Assembly (NCBI GenBank): GCA_036504055.1
Contig: DASXVU010000032.1
Span: 1-37,676 of the forward strand
Reading direction: 5' to 3'
Source of the DNA: Methanomassiliicoccales archaeon
GTDB taxonomy: Archaea; Thermoplasmatota; Thermoplasmata; Methanomassiliicoccales; UBA472
DNA: 37,676 bases
Shown here: positions 10,419 to 19,700 of the stretch, one piece after another
Layout: each line of letters begins with the position of its first letter
How positions within the stretch are numbered: the stretch's first letter is position 1
Made by a program: the position numbers and the translations under genes
The notes under the pieces: generated by a model
Database searches by the model: none
What the model was told of the DNA's origin: nothing
What the model saw: only the letters and a program-made list of their open reading frames with translations

Positions 10419-11849
10419 TCATCGATCGTACTGCCTCCGATTGTCCACCAGAGTGCGCTTGGTCGGAACGAACTCCGCGCTTACTGGCATGACCTCTATC
10501 ACCAGCGGCTCCATCAGATCGTTCTCGATGCTGGACTGGACCTCCGGGATCGCCATCATCCTTTCTTCCAACTGTTTCCTGGCCCAGCTTGGATCTCCAT
10601 TGAATTCGACCTTCGCCGTGAGGCGGTCGCGGAACGAAGGCCGGTCTATGATCACCTGGTGGGAGATGACCCCGTGCACGGATCCGATCGCCTCGTCAAA
10701 CAGATATGGATAGACCTTTTCCCCAAACCCGAACTTGGTGGTCTGGTCGGCCCTTCCCTTCGGCTTTCCCATCTTCCCGACCGTCCGGAAACCGCAATTG
10801 CAGGGTGGCGAGATGTAGCAGCTCAGGTCATAGGACCGGTACCGAAGCAACGGGCTGCCCCTCATGTTCAGGCTGGTCCATACCAGCTCTCCTTCCTTCC
10901 GGTCCGGCAATTGGCTGCCTGAATCGATGTCGACGCATTCCACCAGATAATCCGCCTCGTCCACGTGGATCCCGTCCTGGACCGTGCATTCGATGGCCGT
11001 GGCCAGCCCCATCTCGGTCATACCGTACTGGGTCAAGGCCTTGCACCCCCAGGCAGATTCCAGCTCTTTGCGCATCGCCTCCGAGAGCGGTTCCGACGAG
11101 CATATGATGGCCTTGATCCCCAGCGACCGGAGATCATGTCTGTCCCTGGCCAACATCGTGATCCGATAGATGAAGGAGGTCAGCCCGATCATGATCCGGG
11201 TCTCGCTCTTCCGCATCGTTTCGATCTGGACGTCTATATCGATAGAGCTGCATACGACGGCGTTCAGACCGGCCACCTTGCAGGCGCTTTCCAGCATCAG
11301 GCTCGGATCCCATGAGGTTACTGCGGGGAACATGATCTGGAGCGTTTCATTCTCCTTCAACCCGGCGGTCTTCAGCGCGGCGGAGATGGCGTCCACTATG
11401 TTGAGGACATCATCCCTGGTGTAGAACAGACGCTTCTTCTGCCCGGATGTCCCTGAGGTCGTAAATGCACGCATCACCTTTGACTGGGAGACGCAGAGAA
11501 AGTGGAACGGCTCCTCGGCCAATGCCGCCGGCTCAGTGATGGGGAACTTGACCAGGTCCTCGAACTCCATGAACGAACTGGGGCTAAGTTTGTTGTCGGC
11601 AATGACCTTGTGGTAGTAGACGCTGTTCTCATCGACATAACGCATCAACTTGCGAAATTTGAACATCTGATAATGACGGAGGTCCTCCCGGCTGACCTCG
11701 TTAAGCGATGAGCGGCCCAACACTCGGCGGAACTCCCTTTCGTCCTTGACCGTCTGGCGGACCTTCATGTGGATCCATTCCTCAAGAGGGTTCTCCGTCT
11801 CGGAGTCCAAATTCCTTGAGGTCAGCCTTCTCCGGGCCATGGCGATCAT
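10419..11849 (-). CDS. Phenylacetate-CoA ligase-like adenylate-forming enzyme (PaaK family)
   Basis: PaaK-type enzymes activate a carboxylic acid with ATP and join it to CoA. The roughly 476-residue protein has the P-loop-like AMP-binding motif TTSGTSGQKKR (about 130-140), the YGMTEMG element where the adenylate is bound, and the C-terminal domain with a hinge region (DQTTKFGFGEKVYPYLFDEAIGS, interrupted by family-variable residues). The acid substrate cannot be read from sequence. Methanogens and other anaerobes carry several paralogues for aryl or short-chain acids. The frame runs to a TTG at 11879, but ATG 11849 (or 11840) is more likely, with AGGTC just upstream. It is divergent from the DUF169 gene, with the two coding regions about 110 bp apart. 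Confidence 0.85.
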   Translation of the reverse strand: MIAMARRRLTSRNLDSETENPLEEWIHMKVRQTVKDEREFRRVLGRSSLNEVSREDLRHYQMFKFRKLMRYVDENSVYYHKVIADNKLSPSSFMEFEDLVKFPITEPAALAEEPFHFLCVSQSKVMRAFTTSGTSGQKKRLFYTRDDVLNIVDAISAALKTAGLKENETLQIMFPAVTSWDPSLMLESACKVAGLNAVVCSSIDIDVQIETMRKSETRIMIGLTSFIYRITMLARDRHDLRSLGIKAIICSSEPLSEAMRKELESAWGCKALTQYGMTEMGLATAIECTVQDGIHVDEADYLVECVDIDSGSQLPDRKEGELVWTSLNMRGSPLLRYRSYDLSCYISPPCNCGFRTVGKMGKPKGRADQTTKFGFGEKVYPYLFDEAIGSVHGVISHQVIIDRPSFRDRLTAKVEFNGDPSWARKQLEERMMAIPEVQSSIENDLMEPLVIEVMPVSAEFVPTKRTLVDNRRQYDR

Positions 11850-11926
11850 TAGGGACCTGACAGGATTCACGCCCCCCAATGGCCCTACGCCCGATAATCC
11901 TTTGCGGGGGATCCATCGAACAGGTC

Positions 11927-11936
11927 AATATTATTA
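11927..11936 (+). promoter_or_regulatory. TATA box of the DUF169 gene
   Basis: The run AATATTATTA is centred about 28 bp before the ATG at 11960, predicting a leaderless or nearly leaderless mRNA. It is the main reason for rejecting the longer frame opening at 11879, whose ATG would be upstream of transcription. The element is nearly symmetrical and might also serve the divergent ligase gene. Confidence 0.5.
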
Positions 11937-11959
11937 GCCCAGACGACGATGATATCTGT

Positions 11960-12733
11960 ATGACCGGGCGGACGTGGAAGAACGTATCGGAGCTTGTGCG
12001 AAGTTCGATCAACATGAGCACCAGCCCGGTCGCAGTGTCATTGCTGAAGGATGCGGGCAGCCTTCTTGACCTGCCGAACGTGACGATGGTGACGAACACC
12101 GCCCTATGCCACATGATCGCCCGGGCAAAATATCATGAGAAGGAAGGAATACTGGGAGCCTCGGCCCAAGGCATAAAGTGCATCTGGGCTGACGCCGCGT
12201 TGGGACTGATCCGGACCCCTCAGAGGCTGGCCGACGGCGAACTGAACCGTGACTTCGTTAGGGACGCCCCGGCAGGCAGGCGATTACAGGAATCCATGTA
12301 CATGCTGGGAGATTCAGAGGCAAGATACGGTTCGGTGGTGGTCTCCCCCCTGGACCTTACACCTGTGGAACCAGGCGCGATCGTCCTTTATGTCAGCCCG
12401 GCGCAGGCGTTGAGGCTGATCATCGCCTTCGCCTATGAAAATGGGGAATCGGTGGTCACCGAGATGACCGGGCAGGCATCCGTATGCTGCGCTATCGCCA
12501 AGGCAGTGGGAAAGGGCCAGGTCACGGTCGATATTCCCTGCATTGGAGACCGGGCATTCGGTCTGGCCGGAGAGAACGACATCATCGTTGCCTTTCCCCC
12601 TACAAAGATCGACCAACTCATCGACGGGCTCAGGGGCACAGAAAGGTCCGCCTCTTACCCGTTCAAGCCCTTCATGCGTTGGCCGGTAATTTTCCCACCG
12701 GAGATGGAACCCCGCCGTCCAGAGTTGGAATGA
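11960..12733 (+). CDS. DUF169 family protein
   Basis: The 257-residue protein resembles the DUF169 family, widespread in methanogens and other anaerobes and of unknown function. Visible family traits are an N-terminal segment with SPVAVSLLKD, a Cys-containing NTALCHMIARAKYH segment, a central SPLDLTPVEPGAIVLYVSPAQALRLI region, and a late ASVCCAIAKAV stretch followed by IPCIGDRAFGLAGENDIIVAFP. Several conserved Cys residues suggest metal or cofactor binding, but no motif proves it. The start at 11960 is chosen over 11879 because of the TATA position. It is divergent from a PaaK-like ligase and followed by a small Cys-rich protein. Confidence 0.8.
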   Translation: MTGRTWKNVSELVRSSINMSTSPVAVSLLKDAGSLLDLPNVTMVTNTALCHMIARAKYHEKEGILGASAQGIKCIWADAALGLIRTPQRLADGELNRDFVRDAPAGRRLQESMYMLGDSEARYGSVVVSPLDLTPVEPGAIVLYVSPAQALRLIIAFAYENGESVVTEMTGQASVCCAIAKAVGKGQVTVDIPCIGDRAFGLAGENDIIVAFPPTKIDQLIDGLRGTERSASYPFKPFMRWPVIFPPEMEPRRPELE

Positions 12734-13264: not shown

Positions 13265-14638
13265 TCAGGGTTTCTGGGCGAACTTTGACCACATCTCATG
13301 CCGGTACAATGTCCGGCCGTCCCCTCCATTGATGTTGAACAGGCAGAACGGTATCAATTTCCCATCTGGCGTCACTGTGTGGATGCAGCAATTGCACAAC
13401 CGTTCGGTCTCCACGTTCCAGGCGTCCTGGAATGCCATGGTGGAAACCGTCAGGTAGTTGGTCTTGGCCAGGTCCAGGAATGACCCCCAGGAGTTCTCAC
13501 CCTTTTGTTCGTCTGGTTCGACGGTCAGCGACTCCTCGATGAACCGCCACAGGTCGGATATCTCCTTCCGTGTCTTGGTGGCGATGGTCTTGGTCTCTCG
13601 GGGCGGACCGAGCGCCCGGCTGGTAAGCGGAAAGAGCGTTCCATCCTCCATGACCACGGACATCGATTTGGCATCGCAATGGACGTTCGAGCATGACGTG
13701 GGAACGAAACAATCCGCCCGGAGCTCGCCCTTGGTCTGTTTCTCTATGGCCATCAGAAGGTCCGGTATTGTAACCCGGTCTACATCGCCAGGTTTGATCG
13801 GATAGCGGCCGAAATAACTGATCGGCTGGAAATGTATGCCCTTCACGGTCGGAACGTTCTTCTTGGCGAAGTTGACCACGTCGCCGATCTGGTCGATGTT
13901 GATGTTCGGCGAGACAACGCAGACCAGCGTGACCCCCATCCCGACCTTGGCGCAGTTCTCGATGGTCTTCAGTTTCGATTCGAGCAGGTCCTTGCCGCAT
14001 GTTGCCAGGTAAACGTCTGGAGTGAGACCGTCGAAGGAGAAATATAACGAGTCAACGCCGGCTGCCTTTACCTCCTTGAGGAACTCGATGTCCTGGCCGA
14101 ACCGGACACCGTTGGTGTTCACCTCGATGTGATCGATACCCATGCTCTTACCCAGGCGAACGATGTCCGGCAGGTCGTCCCTGATGGTCGGTTCCCCGCC
14201 GCTGATCTGGACGCAAATGGGATGGTCCACATAGTCGAGCATGGTCTGGTACATGCCCCTGATCGTGTCCATCGAGGGATGGAACTTGTACCTTTCGTTC
14301 GCGCTGGCAAAACAGATCGGGCATTTGAGGTTGCATCCGTTGGTGATTTCCATCACGACCAAGCAGGTATGTTGGTGATGGTCGGGACAGAGACCGCACC
14401 CTTCCGGGCACTTGCCAGTCGTCTGGACGGCGAGCCTGGACGGTCTAGACTGCTCGCAGGCGTACCGGGTCAGGTCCTTATAGTCCTGGACGCCCCGCCA
14501 GACGATGGTCCGGAACTTGCCATGCTCCGGACATTCCTTGTCCAGATAGATGACGTCGTTCTCCGCCACCTTCACCGCCGGTATGGTCTTGAGGCACTCC
14601 GGGCACAGGCTCAGGGTCTCCCCGATCTTTTCACTCAT
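13265..14638 (-). CDS. Radical SAM protein, COG1964 family (tetraether lipid synthase / pterin methylase-like)
   Basis: The 457-residue protein belongs to the archaeal radical SAM group that includes tetraether lipid synthase (Tes) and the methanopterin-branch methylase MJ0619. It has an N-terminal Cys cluster (C12, C15, C36), a second cluster KCPEGCGLC plus HHQHTC (77-92), the radical SAM CX3CX2C motif (C102, C106, C109), a GGEPT SAM-binding element, and C-terminal NCC and PFCLFN cysteines that could hold auxiliary clusters. Tes condenses archaeol chains into GDGT tetraethers; MJ0619 methylates a pterin. I cannot choose firmly, but tetraether synthesis suits a Thermoplasmata archaeon. ATG 14638 is preferred over an upstream GTG at 14647. 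Confidence 0.82.
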   Translation of the reverse strand: MSEKIGETLSLCPECLKTIPAVKVAENDVIYLDKECPEHGKFRTIVWRGVQDYKDLTRYACEQSRPSRLAVQTTGKCPEGCGLCPDHHQHTCLVVMEITNGCNLKCPICFASANERYKFHPSMDTIRGMYQTMLDYVDHPICVQISGGEPTIRDDLPDIVRLGKSMGIDHIEVNTNGVRFGQDIEFLKEVKAAGVDSLYFSFDGLTPDVYLATCGKDLLESKLKTIENCAKVGMGVTLVCVVSPNINIDQIGDVVNFAKKNVPTVKGIHFQPISYFGRYPIKPGDVDRVTIPDLLMAIEKQTKGELRADCFVPTSCSNVHCDAKSMSVVMEDGTLFPLTSRALGPPRETKTIATKTRKEISDLWRFIEESLTVEPDEQKGENSWGSFLDLAKTNYLTVSTMAFQDAWNVETERLCNCCIHTVTPDGKLIPFCLFNINGGDGRTLYRHEMWSKFAQKP

Positions 14639-14807
14639 CAGATGCACCAGCTATATATTTCTTCGAAATGCCTTGCCGCCTTTACTAGTTTTCCCAGAAT
14701 GTCCAGGAACGTTGGAAAGGAACTAACTGGACATCGCCGTGGCTCTGCCCGATGATTGGAAAAAAAGAAATTATCTTGGCCGTTCTTCGCGGCCAGTTTG
14801 GGTTTAT

Positions 14808-15263
14808 TCAAGCGCGCTTCTTCTCGAACAGACCTTCCGCCGCGGCCAGGGTCTTTACTGCGAGGTACTCCTCGACCATGGTGGTCTTGCACTTCGGGCA
14901 GACCAGCGCCGGACCCGACCGGTTGACGGTCATGTAGGTGATGTTCACTTGCCCCTGGTGGACAGACTCGTTGCAGTGGGCGCAGATCCATTCAGACTTG
15001 TCGCCGATGCTCTGCACGTCGCCCAGGACCATCCGGTGCGAGTATGCCGTCTTGACCGTCGCGGACTTCTTCAGGATCCCGCTCTCCATGTCATAGAGGG
15101 CATAGATGGTAACGTCCCCGATCATCTTCTTGCCGAGGTTGTCGTCGCCCTTCTTGAACTTCACACCCGAGGATTCAGCGGTCTTTATCACGTCCTCGAC
15201 GTCCGCCTCCTTTATCCCCCGCTTGCCCAGCACTTCCTTGATTGCTTCAGTTTTGACTTCCAT
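14808..15263 (-). CDS. Zinc-ribbon protein paired with the methyltransferase (DUF7479-like C-terminus)
   Basis: The 151-residue protein has an N-terminal alpha/beta part (EVLGKRGIKEADVEDVIKT onward) and a C-terminal single zinc ribbon, CAHC then CPKC about 35 residues later. The end, VEEYLAVKTLAAAEGLFEKKR, resembles small redox or zinc proteins found beside corrinoid methyltransferases. The ATG at 15263 has a good GAGGTGA site; the frame also opens with a GTG at 15272. It begins 10 bp after the UroD-fold methyltransferase stop, so the pair is an operon. A role as adaptor or partner of that methyltransferase is inferred from position only. Confidence 0.75.
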   Translation of the reverse strand: MEVKTEAIKEVLGKRGIKEADVEDVIKTAESSGVKFKKGDDNLGKKMIGDVTIYALYDMESGILKKSATVKTAYSHRMVLGDVQSIGDKSEWICAHCNESVHQGQVNITYMTVNRSGPALVCPKCKTTMVEEYLAVKTLAAAEGLFEKKRA

Positions 15264-15273
15264 TTTAGTCACC

Positions 15274-16392
15274 TCACCATGTTCCGTAGGTACCGAAGTC
15301 CTGGGCGGCCTTCACCAGTGCTCTCATGTTTCCGGGCAGCGTGTACGGGGGCGTCTCGCAAGAGGTACCTAGGATGTATCCCTTCTTGGAGTCGCGACCC
15401 GCGAGTAGCTGGTCCTTCGCCTGGTCATATACGGCCTTCGGGTTCGGGTTGATCATCAGCTTGGTATCGACAGAGCCCATGCAGGTCGAGACGCTCTCGA
15501 ACTCGCTCTTCAGCTTGGCGGATGGGAACGGGTTCCTTCCATCATACCCTATGTGGGTAACGGTGAACGGAGACCAGACAACCGATTCCTTGAAGAGTTT
15601 GTGGTCGGTCGTGTGGTTACCGCATAGGTGATAGAACACCTGCGGGCCGGCTCCCTTTCTGAAGGCCCCGTCCACGAACATCTTCATGTTGTCGAAGGAG
15701 TATTTCTTGACCGCTTCGTCCGAGAAGATATCGTTGTTGCCCAAGACGGACCCAACGATCAGCATGGCCATTCCGTACGTGTCGGCCAGTCCCTCAGCGC
15801 CATTGATGGCTGTCTGGGTATAGTTCTTGACCAACTTCATGGCCGCTTCCTCTTCGGTGAACGTCCACATGATGAAGTTCTCGACACCAACGAGTTCTGC
15901 GGCCGCACCCACCAGGTCGAAACCGTATGAGATAGGGACCAGGGTCTGAGGTAGGTTCTTCTGAACATATCCATAGATCCTCTTGAACATCGGCTGGGTC
16001 CAGCCCTTCTCCAGCTCCTCCTTGTCCGGGATGTGCATCTTGTCGACGTCGCCCGGTTCAGAGTAGATCGGTCCGGTGGAGATTGGCGGCAGCGTGTCCT
16101 TATACTCGAGCTTCAGCCCGAGTTCGGTGACCCACGGAAGAGAGAAGAACCAGTGCGTCACAGGCAAGAGGTCGTACATCTCATTCGCGTACCCGACACA
16201 GTGTATTCCCAATTCCGGCTTCTCATAGAAGTCCCTGATCGTATAACCGCACGTTACTGCAGCGTGCGACAGTATGATCGCGTCTACATCGATCCTGTCG
16301 TGCGGTTTGTCGACGAAGGGACTTGCGAATCTCTTTGTGGCGTTTCCCGCCCAATTCATGTTCCATGGTGGAAATAGCTCTTCATAGCCCAT
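15274..16392 (-). CDS. UroD-fold (MtaA/MtbA/CmuA-like) methyltransferase
   Basis: The 372-residue protein belongs to the uroporphyrinogen decarboxylase-like superfamily that includes zinc-dependent corrinoid:CoM/THF methyltransferases. A likely zinc site is the HLCGNH element about 100 residues from the end together with the Cys of GTSCETPPY near the C-terminus, matching the H-x-C-xn-C pattern of MtaA/MtbA. True UroD enzymes lack this. The methyl donor and acceptor are unknown. ATG 16392 follows a CGGGGAT site; the longer frame to 16500 translates promoter DNA. The TATA element is at 16427-16434, preceded by a long inverted repeat. It is co-transcribed with a zinc-ribbon protein and sits beside a metal transporter operon. 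Confidence 0.85.
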   Translation of the reverse strand: MGYEELFPPWNMNWAGNATKRFASPFVDKPHDRIDVDAIILSHAAVTCGYTIRDFYEKPELGIHCVGYANEMYDLLPVTHWFFSLPWVTELGLKLEYKDTLPPISTGPIYSEPGDVDKMHIPDKEELEKGWTQPMFKRIYGYVQKNLPQTLVPISYGFDLVGAAAELVGVENFIMWTFTEEEAAMKLVKNYTQTAINGAEGLADTYGMAMLIVGSVLGNNDIFSDEAVKKYSFDNMKMFVDGAFRKGAGPQVFYHLCGNHTTDHKLFKESVVWSPFTVTHIGYDGRNPFPSAKLKSEFESVSTCMGSVDTKLMINPNPKAVYDQAKDQLLAGRDSKKGYILGTSCETPPYTLPGNMRALVKAAQDFGTYGTW

Positions 16393-16426: not shown

Positions 16427-16434
16427 TATTTAAT
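16427..16434 (-). promoter_or_regulatory. TATA box of the methyltransferase operon
   Basis: The minus strand reads ATTAAATA, centred about 38 bp before the ATG at 16392. It predicts a transcript starting near 16405 and a short leader carrying the CGGGGAT ribosome-binding site. Confidence 0.6.
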
Positions 16435-16452
16435 GATTATCGTGTTTTTACC

Positions 16453-16506
16453 GCAACAATGTTCCAAAAAATGGCCTTTAGCCCTGTTAATATTGAACAT
16501 TGTTGC
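16453..16506. promoter_or_regulatory. 12-bp perfect inverted repeat upstream of the methyltransferase promoter
   Basis: GCAACAATGTTC at 16453-16464 is the exact reverse complement of GAACATTGTTGC at 16495-16506. The arm centres are 42 bp apart, or four helical turns, so both arms face the same side of the DNA. Each arm is itself an imperfect palindrome (CAACA-A-TGTTC), so each may bind a dimer. They lie 19 to 72 bp upstream of the TATA box, a typical place for an archaeal activator. A smaller TTTCAT / ATGAAA pair lies at 16534-16549. The octamer AACAATGT also occurs at 19261-19268 beside the NikR-like gene. Confidence 0.6.
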
Positions 16507-16637
16507 TCAATTCCTGAAAATAGTGTATATATGTTTCATCTTTATGAAAAATCGTTGCTACCGAATTTGATAACATGATTCCAAATAAACGATTGAAGAA
16601 GGTTTAGACCAGGTCGAAAATAAGAATCCTAATGGAA

Positions 16638-17501
16638 TCAGTCATCGCAGGAATCGACCTCGATCCGAGGGGCTGATTTATAGAAAAAGCGCTTTAGGAG
16701 CACGGTCAACCCGAATATGATCACACTGATCAGGACGATAGCCCCGCCAGCTGCGACATCGTAGAAGAAAGATATCAACAGTCCGTCTATGACCGCAACG
16801 ATGCTGAAGATCACCCCTCCGACCATGGTTCCCTTGAACGATCGGGACAGCTGCATGGATGAGGCCGCCGGGATAATGATAAGGGCGGAAATAAGCAACG
16901 ATCCGACGATCTTGATGGAAATGACCACGGTCAAGGCCACGACGACGTTGAAGATCAGGTCCATCTTGGCGACCGGTACCCCTGCCAGGCGAGCCCCAGG
17001 TTCATCAAAGGTCATGTGGAGGAGCTCTTTGTAGAACAGGAGGGAAAAGCCTAGCACCACCGCCGCCAGGAACAGGACGAAGACCAGGTCGCTCTCGGAC
17101 ACGGTCAATATCGAACCGAACAGGTAGCCGAACAGATCGACGTTGAACCCGCCTGCAAGGCTTGCAAGCACCGCGCCCAATGCCAATCCCAGGGAGAAAA
17201 GAATGCCGATGGCCGTCTCGGAGTACACTATCTTCCTCCTCTGGAGCAGTGATATCGCAACCGTACCGAACAGGGCGAAGACCAGGGCCATGTACAATGG
17301 ATATATGGAAAAGAAGAGACCGGCGGCTATTCCCCCGAACGCCAGATGAGATATCCCTTCGCCGATCAGCGATTGACGCCTGAGGACGATGAACACTCCC
17401 AGAACCGAGCAGAGCACGGCAGCGCATATTCCGCCGATAAGCGCCCGCTGAAAGAATCCTTGGCTGAGCATCCAGGTGAAATCGCTGAAGTCGAGCATCA
17501 T
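16638..17501 (-). CDS. Metal ABC transporter permease (ZnuB/MntB type)
   Basis: This is the membrane subunit of a cluster A-I (zinc/manganese-type) ABC importer. The roughly 287-residue protein has eight or so hydrophobic helices and the ABC-3 family signature (GISHLAFGGIAAG near residues 60-72, and a DEPGARLAGVPV segment before the last helices). The frame can be extended to 17540, but the natural start is one of the tandem ATGs at 17501/17498. The first shares its A with the TGA of the upstream ATPase gene. It is the last gene of the three-gene operon, and the tail ends in SCDD. A T-rich tract downstream (about 16605-16625, minus strand) may end transcription. Confidence 0.92.
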   Translation of the reverse strand: MMLDFSDFTWMLSQGFFQRALIGGICAAVLCSVLGVFIVLRRQSLIGEGISHLAFGGIAAGLFFSIYPLYMALVFALFGTVAISLLQRRKIVYSETAIGILFSLGLALGAVLASLAGGFNVDLFGYLFGSILTVSESDLVFVLFLAAVVLGFSLLFYKELLHMTFDEPGARLAGVPVAKMDLIFNVVVALTVVISIKIVGSLLISALIIIPAASSMQLSRSFKGTMVGGVIFSIVAVIDGLLISFFYDVAAGGAIVLISVIIFGLTVLLKRFFYKSAPRIEVDSCDD

Positions 17502-18310
17502 CAAGCCCCCTTGATCGGGATCGGATGGTCGATATCGCATTCATGGTGGTCATGATGGAACATGAACGTGAAGTGCGGCCCGTACGCCTGGCGGAGCATC
17601 GTGGTCGGGTCCTCTCCCTCCACTATGTCCTCGAAGTACACCTTACGGTTGACGACCGCTAGTTTGTTGGCCTGGCATAGAACGCCGGACAGGTCGTGGG
17701 AAACGGTGAGCAGGGTTATGTCCATCTCTTTCCGCAGGTCCCGGATCATCCGTACGAATTTGTCCTGTATGCAGACATCCAGGCCGGTCGTTGCCTCATC
17801 AAGCACAAGCAGGTCCGGCCTCTTCACCAATGCCTTGGCGATGAAGATCCGCTGCTTCTGACCCCCAGAGAGCTGGGATATCTTCCTCTTCTTGTAGGGT
17901 TCCAGTCCAACCAGATGTATTGCGTTTTCCACCGCCTTCTTATCGTCCTTGGTAAGACGGCGGCCCAGCCGGCTTCTTCTGATGCAGCCCAGGGACACGA
18001 TCTCCTCTACGGTGGCCGGGAATATCGGGTCGAACTGGATCGCGGTCTGTGCCACATACCCGATGCGTTCGAACGAATGGAAGCTGTGAACGTCCTCTCC
18101 GAAAAGCGATATCGTCCCATGCGCGATCGGTGTATTGCCAAGAATGGCATTCAACAGAGTTGTCTTACCGCCTCCGTTGGGGCCGACGATGCCGACTACG
18201 TCGCCCTTCTTGACCTTCATGGAGACGTTCTCCAGTATGACATTGTTCCCGTACTTCACTGACACATCCTCGAGCTCGACCACGCTATCGGTCAAATGTT
18301 CAATTGGCAT
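17501..18310 (-). CDS. Metal ABC transporter ATP-binding protein (ZnuC type)
   Basis: The 269-residue ATPase energises the metal importer. It has Walker A GPNGGGKTT (about 43-51), the Q-loop near YVAQTA, the ABC signature LSGGQKQR, Walker B LLVLDEAT and the switch His in TVSHDLSG. The C-terminus adds a His/Asp/Cys-rich tail, MFHHDHHECDIDHP, absent from the core fold and likely to bind metal. Its ATG shares one base with the stop of the substrate-binding protein gene, and its stop shares one base with the permease start. The three subunits are therefore tightly coupled. Confidence 0.95.
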   Translation of the reverse strand: MPIEHLTDSVVELEDVSVKYGNNVILENVSMKVKKGDVVGIVGPNGGGKTTLLNAILGNTPIAHGTISLFGEDVHSFHSFERIGYVAQTAIQFDPIFPATVEEIVSLGCIRRSRLGRRLTKDDKKAVENAIHLVGLEPYKKRKISQLSGGQKQRIFIAKALVKRPDLLVLDEATTGLDVCIQDKFVRMIRDLRKEMDITLLTVSHDLSGVLCQANKLAVVNRKVYFEDIVEGEDPTTMLRQAYGPHFTFMFHHDHHECDIDHPIPIKGA

Positions 18311-19212
18311 TATCTAACCTCCAAACCGATCTGCAAAGCAGCTAGGTTTGTGTACATTATCTGGAAATAGTCCATGTGGGCATGGGCTCCGCTCCGTCCG
18401 TGCAGCGCATCGAGTATGAGCACCGTGCAATGGGTCTCGGAGGCTATGGTCTGAATGACCGCGTCGTTGTATATCGGTTCAGCGAAAACGTAATGGAGCC
18501 CCATGGTCTGGACGTCCTGCACCAGATTGGCAATGTCCTTGGCACTGGGTTGGGCATCGGCGCTTATGCCGACCGCCCCATGGTCTACGAGCCCGTATCT
18601 CTTTGCCAGATAGTTGAACCCCTCATGCGTGGTGATGAAGTCGTTCTTGGTCCGGTTCTGCAGGCCCAAGACATAATCCTGTTTTAGCTTGTCCAACCTG
18701 TTATTGAGGTCGACGGCGTTGGCCTGGTAGAATGTGGCATTGGCAGGGTCATTGGACTCCAGTGAATGAGCGATTTCTTCGACCTGGATCTTGGCGTCGA
18801 TGGGGTCCATCCAGAAATGGGGGTCTGCTTGCCCGGTCTGATTGACACCCGCGCTGGTATCCACCACGCTGGCCCCTGTCTTCAGATTTGGCAGGAAGGA
18901 GGCCAGCCAAGGCTCGAATCCCCCGCCGTTATAGATGAAAACGTCTGCGTTATGGATTTTGAAGATGTCACTCGCTTTAGGTTCCCAGGAATGCGGCTCC
19001 GCATTGTCAGGGATGAGCATCAGCAGATCGATCCGGTCCTTGCCGACTTGGTCGGCGAAATAATACAGAGGGTAGAAGCTGGCCACGACCTCGAGCTTGC
19101 CCGTGCTTGTGTAACCGGCAGTGGTGGTGAAGACTACGAATGATCCGGCCAGCACCAATAGTGAGGCCATTGTGATCGCGACCACGCCACGATATTCTTC
19201 CGGTATACCCAT
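18310..19212 (-). CDS. Metal ABC transporter substrate-binding protein (ZnuA type)
   Basis: This extracytoplasmic metal-binding protein is anchored by an N-terminal hydrophobic helix (about 10-30 from the ATG at 19212), and no lipobox Cys is seen. Cluster A-I ligands are visible: His in EPHSWEP, His in DPHFWMDP, His in TTHEGFNYL and an acidic residue in VFAEPIYND. There is only a short linker instead of the long His-rich loop of ZnuA. The set suits zinc or manganese; nickel is also conceivable given the regulator next door. The ATG at 19212 (300 aa) has GGTGG five bases upstream and fits the TATA position better than the one at 19230. It heads the transporter operon. Confidence 0.92.
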   Translation of the reverse strand: MGIPEEYRGVVAITMASLLVLAGSFVVFTTTAGYTSTGKLEVVASFYPLYYFADQVGKDRIDLLMLIPDNAEPHSWEPKASDIFKIHNADVFIYNGGGFEPWLASFLPNLKTGASVVDTSAGVNQTGQADPHFWMDPIDAKIQVEEIAHSLESNDPANATFYQANAVDLNNRLDKLKQDYVLGLQNRTKNDFITTHEGFNYLAKRYGLVDHGAVGISADAQPSAKDIANLVQDVQTMGLHYVFAEPIYNDAVIQTIASETHCTVLILDALHGRSGAHAHMDYFQIMYTNLAALQIGLEVR

Positions 19213-19230
19213 GTCCACCAATGAATGCAA

Positions 19231-19316: not shown

Positions 19317-19700
19317 ATGGTCGTTATCAGCATTTCCCTCAACGAACAGAACGTGAAGGACCTCGACGCCATCCAGAAGGAGCTTGGCTTCTCCGGGCGA
19401 TCGGAAGCGGTAAGGACAGCGTTGAGAACGCTGGTGGCCGAGCGAAACGAACGGAAGAAAATGGTAGGCCATGTTGACGGTGCCTTGATCATAGTCACAG
19501 AGATGGGCTCTTCGGAATCCATCGATGAGATCTACCATAAGAACCAGGAAATGATCAAGACCCACATCCACAACCATGTCGGAGGGGACCGTTGCATGAA
19601 CCTGCTCATGATCGAGGGAGAGGCTTCGCGGGTCAACAGGATCCTGGACCAGCTGGAACGGCTGGAGGGCGTGAGCTATCTCAAGTTCATTCAATCCTGA
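19317..19700 (+). CDS. NikR-like metal-responsive ribbon-helix-helix repressor
   Basis: The 127-residue protein has an N-terminal ribbon-helix-helix DNA-binding domain (about 1-45, VVISISLNEQNVKDLDAIQ then SRSEAVR-like helix) and a C-terminal ACT-like metal domain. The four nickel ligands of E. coli NikR (His76, His87, His89, Cys95) are all present at the right spacing: the His of EIYHKNQ, then 11 residues on HNH, then GGDRC. NikR proteins bind nickel and repress metal uptake genes. Here the neighbour is a ZnuABC-type importer transcribed divergently, so it probably represses that operon. Whether the physiological metal is nickel or zinc cannot be told. Its 3' end overlaps the convergent rhodanese gene by 10 bp. 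Confidence 0.9.
   Translation: MVVISISLNEQNVKDLDAIQKELGFSGRSEAVRTALRTLVAERNERKKMVGHVDGALIIVTEMGSSESIDEIYHKNQEMIKTHIHNHVGGDRCMNLLMIEGEASRVNRILDQLERLEGVSYLKFIQS

Follow-up and report, generated by a model that had tools for sequence, protein, structure and literature searches.

A conserved array of phased dyads upstream of a UroD-fold methyltransferase operon in Methanomassiliicoccales, a probable operator of an Lrp/AsnC-family regulator

Introduction

Archaeal Lrp operators are typically imperfect palindromes of 13–17 bp with AT-rich centres, clustered in helical phase (PMC2995911). Those of Ptr2 (from Methanocaldococcus jannaschii), LysM and Ss-LrpB comprise several phased imperfect palindromes upstream of the TFB-recognition element (BRE) and the TATA box, and sites are also found at the regulator's own gene; in Ptr2-type activation a dimer site lies a few bp upstream of the BRE and aids TBP and TFB, and LrpA of Pyrococcus furiosus represses itself by binding downstream of TATA (PMC2995911). 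Here we describe a similar array of dyads at the promoter of an operon headed by a gene for a UroD-fold methyltransferase, in a stretch of 37,676 nucleotides (hereafter, the window) from a Methanomassiliicoccales archaeon; in the genome concerned (G000; 2.66 Mb, 99.9% complete), this stretch makes up contig C32.

The Methanomassiliicoccales are mostly uncultured methylotrophic methanogens, important in guts and wetlands, and transcriptional control of methanogenesis in this order appears undescribed in the literature searched. In Methanosarcina, also methylotrophic methanogens, the methanol methyltransferase operons are controlled by helix-turn-helix (HTH) regulators, the Msr proteins, whose family differs from Lrp/AsnC. 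We propose, with a probability of about 0.8, that this array serves as operator for an uncharacterised Lrp/AsnC regulator encoded in the mcr cluster, which would probably activate the UroD-fold methyltransferase/TrsS operon and repress its own gene. Open-access text searched for the regulator, the motif and TrsS yielded no published description of the system or of its regulator–target pair. The system is a further case of the known Lrp regulons, and it is the regulator–target pair that appears to be new; the finding supplies a candidate regulator, an operator consensus, rules for its spacing and a list of very few targets. It also connects a functionally unknown operon with the mcr cluster, which may help to find the operon's role.

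Results

Three phased dyads precede the methyltransferase operon

A preliminary description of the window had drawn attention to a 12-bp perfect inverted repeat 5′ of TATA at the methyltransferase operon, and the repeat is indeed there: GCAACAATGTTC occupies positions 16453–16464 and its exact complement, GAACATTGTTGC, positions 16495–16506, with arm centres 42 bp apart as described. What did not stand is the repeat as the functional unit. The unit derived from the orthologous promoters is a 15-bp dyad, TGnAAC-N3-GTTnCA, the core centres of which are mostly AAT, ATT, AAC or GTT; each arm is one imperfect copy of it, and the dyad centres, at 16459 and 16500, are 41 bp apart. The suggestion that the near-palindromic arms are dimer sites on the same DNA face was supported, with three putative sites (starts at −74, −115 and −146 relative to the ATG) rather than two:

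16427..16433, minus strand: TATA box TTAAATA, recognised by sequence; BRE just upstream; 33 bp from site I start to TATA start
16452..16466, minus strand: site I, proximal dyad TGGAACATTGTTGCG; 9/10 consensus positions; start at −74 from the ATG
16493..16507, minus strand: site II, middle dyad AGCAACAATGTTCAA; 8/10 consensus positions; 41 bp upstream of site I
16524..16538, minus strand: site III, distal dyad TGAAACATATATACA; 8/10 consensus positions, degenerate; 72 bp upstream of site I

Sites I and II are four helical turns apart and sites II and III three turns (31 bp), all on one DNA face; the gap between site I and TATA is 18 bp, which leaves about 10–12 bp to the BRE. In 3000 shuffles the highest score was 15 for the 41-bp pair and 20 for the triple, whereas the window reaches 17/20 and 25/30, respectively; all these scores are conditional on a consensus partly derived from relatives.

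The bare repeat is statistically weak alone, and it is phylogenetic footprinting that makes the case strong. Although it is the sole perfect inverted repeat of at least 12 bp with a gap of up to 60 bp anywhere in the window, it is only mildly unusual, such a repeat being found in 7.5% of dinucleotide shuffles of the whole window (n = 40) and in 0.17% of shuffles of the 245-bp intergenic region (n = 20,000). The exact 12-mer has three copies in the genome, two of which form this repeat; when up to two mismatches are allowed there are about 190 genome matches, versus 65 for the control, so that a single arm is unspecific. The bare 12-mer was rejected as a genome-wide motif on account of this wide recurrence. 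The third exact copy of GCAACAATGTTC (L003 1501–1512; G000:C36:51967–51978) lies just 5′ of the start of a UspA-like gene and fits the dyad at only 7/10 positions. An open frame listed by the open-reading-frame tool begins at 16500, within the repeat; orthologues align from 16392 instead, and the repeat is therefore non-coding.

The array is conserved in position, spacing and phase

The preliminary description had made its case depend on whether orthologous promoters carry the repeat, and they do: the proximal dyad is kept in 49 of 51 orthologous methyltransferase promoters of the Methanomassiliicoccales. Nearly all of the genomes compared are metagenome-assembled; whole genomes were searched by pattern, and beyond the window genes were called simply as open frames. 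A dyad with at least 8/10 consensus positions near −71 is present in 40 of the 42 named promoters of orthologues (61% identity or more) and in none of 12 promoters of UroD paralogues (45–57%), the shuffled expectation being 3.9%. The promoter of the paralogue in the window's own genome, on contig C48, is also without dyads; this paralogue (L076; G000:C48:220340–221440), 60% identical to the methyltransferase, has no TrsS operon neighbours.

Among the 49 promoters with the proximal site, an upstream dyad is found at 40–41 bp in 21 and at 70–72 bp in 24, and no other upstream offset reaches three promoters. The distance from dyad start to TATA is mostly constant and otherwise about one helical turn more (31–33 bp in 39 promoters and 42–44 bp in four; it is 25 bp in one). 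Position, spacing and phase of the dyads are conserved across six families, and such phasing would be the expected imprint of a protein assembly that sits on one DNA face in touch with the basal machinery.

The same dyads recur at an Lrp/AsnC gene

A search of 61 relatives for two dyads at 41-bp spacing, with up to three mismatches, gave 31 forward matches versus one for the control. Most are at promoters of the methyltransferase or of an Lrp/AsnC-family regulator gene, the recurrent second location of the double dyad being directly 5′ of the latter. The regulator carries the AsnC HTH and RAM domains (PF13404 and PF01037; both exceed their cut-offs in the proteins P0007 and P0008) and matches LrpA (1i1g, E 8e-18) and PH1519 (E 5e-11). 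Its gene is a single-copy orthologue, found at G000:C5:69831–70286 on the minus strand in the window's genome, and precedes ycaO and tfuA (McrA thioamidation) and mcrBDGA; it is often itself preceded by genes for RamA, an MtaA-like protein, a corrinoid protein and DUF169, and in G043 it lies ~1.6 kb upstream of the methyltransferase gene. Strong matches to the regulator are confined to the Methanomassiliicoccales among the 300 genomes of the class that were searched. In many relatives its promoter has dyads at about −24 to −41 from the ATG, often with another 41 bp further up (about −24/−65), and these sit downstream of the gene's own TATA box. A one-mismatch dyad, possibly due to chance, lies in the window's genome between a gene for a second AsnC-like HTH protein and a divergent gene (L275 2840–2854; G000:C39).

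Methyltransferase and regulator occur together and are lost together. Both are present in 48 of 101 genomes and both absent from 49, the methyltransferase alone being found in three (G005, G009 and G038) and the regulator alone in one (G021, 82% complete); these counts ignore phylogeny. The exception of G038 is probably an assembly gap because ycaO, the regulator's neighbour, is also missing from this assembly; its methyltransferase promoter keeps the dyad (L131). In genus g6, the methyltransferase of G005 and G009 has a promoter without the dyad, and in G005 and G013 the regulator gene is gone from between DUF169 and ycaO, both otherwise intact. In genus g14, G029 and G032 have no regulator gene between RamA and ycaO and are also without the methyltransferase, whereas other species of the genus retain both. 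There are 48 perfect dyads in the 49 regulator-positive genomes versus 6 in the 52 regulator-negative ones. Moreover, the sites at the two promoters tend to change in step in their sequence (rho 0.65, p 0.017, n = 13, phylogeny ignored).

Other candidate targets are few

The array stands at the UroD-fold operon, as the earlier claim of dedicated control had it, but the control would not be strictly private, since dyads are also found at the Lrp/AsnC promoter and, in some families, 5′ of genes for MtaA-like methylcobamide:coenzyme M (CoM) methyltransferase and corrinoid proteins beside the regulator (L217, L219, L256, L257, L269 and L270). In the window's genome no MtaA-like or corrinoid target was seen: its own MtaA-like gene is without a dyad, and the methyltransferase operon has the only good array. 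The single dyad was rejected as a regulon finder in this genome, its matches being close to background, and the flanks of the extra one-mismatch sites were mostly coding positions, without recognisable methyl-transfer genes. In G023 a perfect dyad also lies 3′ of mcrA, with other genes on either side (L226, around 1501; G023:C13:8093).

Discussion

Comparison with described Lrp systems

The array, with its 15-bp imperfect palindromes, their AT-rich centres and multiple helically phased sites, has features typical of Lrp/AsnC operators, and the sign of autoregulation, the same operator at the regulator's own promoter, is present in many relatives and degenerate in the window's genome. The array resembles those of Ptr2, LysM and Ss-LrpB in having several phased imperfect palindromes upstream of BRE/TATA and sites at the regulator's gene (PMC2995911). 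It differs in its centre spacing, which is two or three turns in those systems and four and seven turns here (41 and 72 bp); the shorter spacing is a usual, not a defining, feature of Lrp/AsnC operators, from which the main pair described here departs. Further differences are the greater distance of site I from the BRE, the methyl-transfer targets and the location of the regulator gene in the mcr cluster. FL11 (PH1519, Pyrococcus horikoshii) and LrpA (P. furiosus) belong to the same protein family as the regulator. The LrpA self-repression site, downstream of TATA, is placed like the dyads at the lrp promoter; FL11, on the other hand, is described as global, with about 200 predicted targets, whereas very few targets are visible per genome here.

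A proposed mechanism

In the mechanism that we favour, Lrp dimers would bind the TGnAAC-N3-GTTnCA dyads, which share one DNA face at spacings of 41 and 72 bp, and would join, probably forming a wrapped higher oligomer. From its place about 18 bp 5′ of TATA, site I would then help to recruit or stabilise TBP/TFB, which would switch on the UroD-fold methyltransferase – DUF7479 – TrsS operon. The regulator would repress its own gene by binding copies of the dyad on the downstream side of that gene's TATA box. The effector might, at a guess, be a methylotrophy- or corrinoid-linked metabolite. As a tentative extension, somewhat less likely to be right than wrong, the mcr-cluster Lrp may be a dedicated methylotrophy switch of the Methanomassiliicoccales, sensing methyl-donor or corrinoid state and activating the UroD-fold methyltransferase/TrsS operon via a three-site lattice of four plus three turns, and in some families MtaA/corrinoid genes too, which would link methyl-CoM reductase and its thioamidation with a new methyl-transfer route.

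Several observations weigh against the proposed assignment. In the window's genome the regulator promoter has a degenerate site only (two mismatches), and in several relatives it has no clear dyad. Single-dyad matches at one mismatch are near background in the same genome (47 versus 32 for the control). The co-occurrence counts of methyltransferase and regulator take no account of phylogeny, and the co-drift of site sequences between the two promoters is modest. Finally, site I, at ~10–12 bp from the BRE, is beyond the few bp described for Ptr2-type activators.

Alternative explanations

It is rather unlikely that the same Lrp represses the operon, the wrapped upstream DNA lowering access of TBP/TFB until an effector releases it. 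A three-site array could wrap ~90 bp; yet the sites lie 5′ of TATA/BRE in fixed helical phase to TATA, including the one-turn jumps, which is the geometry of activation, and it is at the regulator's own promoter that the dyads instead lie downstream of TATA. From this geometry we infer activation of the operon rather than its repression. We consider it distinctly unlikely that another transcription factor binds the dyads, for example the NikR-like protein encoded at 19317–19700 or an Msr-like HTH protein, with the lrp gene as merely another target. The promoter of one regulator can of course be the target of another, and family f1 has the NikR-like gene nearby; in families f2–f6, however, where the dyads persist, this gene (cluster C15) was not found near the operon, and NikR was rejected as the binder on its distribution. 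Furthermore, the presence of Lrp tracks the dyads, a lineage that lost Lrp lost them, and the dyad shape fits Lrp.

It is very improbable that the repeat works in RNA, forming a terminator or attenuator hairpin for the transcript of the upstream ABC (ATP-binding cassette) permease or for a leader. The two arms could pair into a hairpin, leaving a loop of 30 nt, and the permease gene, encoded on the same strand, ends at 16638, but relatives keep the dyad spacing and not the arm-to-arm complementarity as a unit, the dyads recur where the upstream gene differs and, being upstream of TATA, they are outside the operon mRNA. Next to no credence can be given to the repeat as a chance feature of AT-rich intergenic DNA: its frequency in window shuffles (7.5%) and the abundance of single arms with mismatches in the genome would agree with chance, but this is refuted by the footprint, with position, spacing and phase conserved across six families and the dyads absent from paralogues.

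The operon and its neighbours

The genes downstream of the array are:

15274..16392, minus strand: UroD-fold (MtaA/CmuA-like) methyltransferase, 372 aa; PF01208 URO-D, E 7e-25; start codon at 16392
14808..15272, minus strand: DUF7479/DVU_1557-like metal- or redox-site protein, second operon gene, 154 aa; PF24292, E 5e-17
13265..14647, minus strand: TrsS-type radical SAM (S-adenosylmethionine) protein, third gene, 460 aa; NF045646, 527 bits (cut-off 490)
10419..11879, minus strand: DVU_1553-like AMP-dependent coenzyme A (CoA) ligase, conserved neighbour; NF045666, 253 bits, below the cut-off of 300

The methyltransferase scores far below the curated cut-offs for MtaA (37 bits; 400), MtbA (22; 600) and MtaA/CmuA (41; 235), and its identification as MtaA or MtbA was rejected on these grounds. 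In nearly all relatives the DUF7479 gene is directly downstream of it and the TrsS gene likewise syntenic. The DVU_1553-like CoA ligase and a DUF169 protein (10419–12733) also neighbour the TrsS operon in almost every relative; no dyad was found at the CoA ligase promoter, so that its membership of the unit is not supported. The set resembles an archaeal version of the Desulfovibrio DVU_1553–1557/TrsS gene set in that TrsS passes its cut-off and a DVU_1557-type domain and a DVU_1553-like CoA ligase are present; it differs in being led by a UroD-fold methyltransferase, and the scores for the NCBIfam models of the CoA ligase and DVU_1557 stay below the cut-offs.

On the other side of the array, a ZnuA/ZnuC/ZnuB-type metal ABC transporter operon (16638–19230, minus strand) is divergent from the gene for the NikR-like regulator (PF08753 plus a ribbon-helix-helix domain; 19317–19700, plus strand), and this pair is conserved beside the methyltransferase operon in much of family f1. 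The Methanomassiliicoccales have been described as being without the full Mtr complex; near the regulator gene in genus g11, MtrA-like and MtrH-like genes are found between RamA and DUF169 (L256 5676–7353 and L257 5457–7119; Pfam matches for L256).
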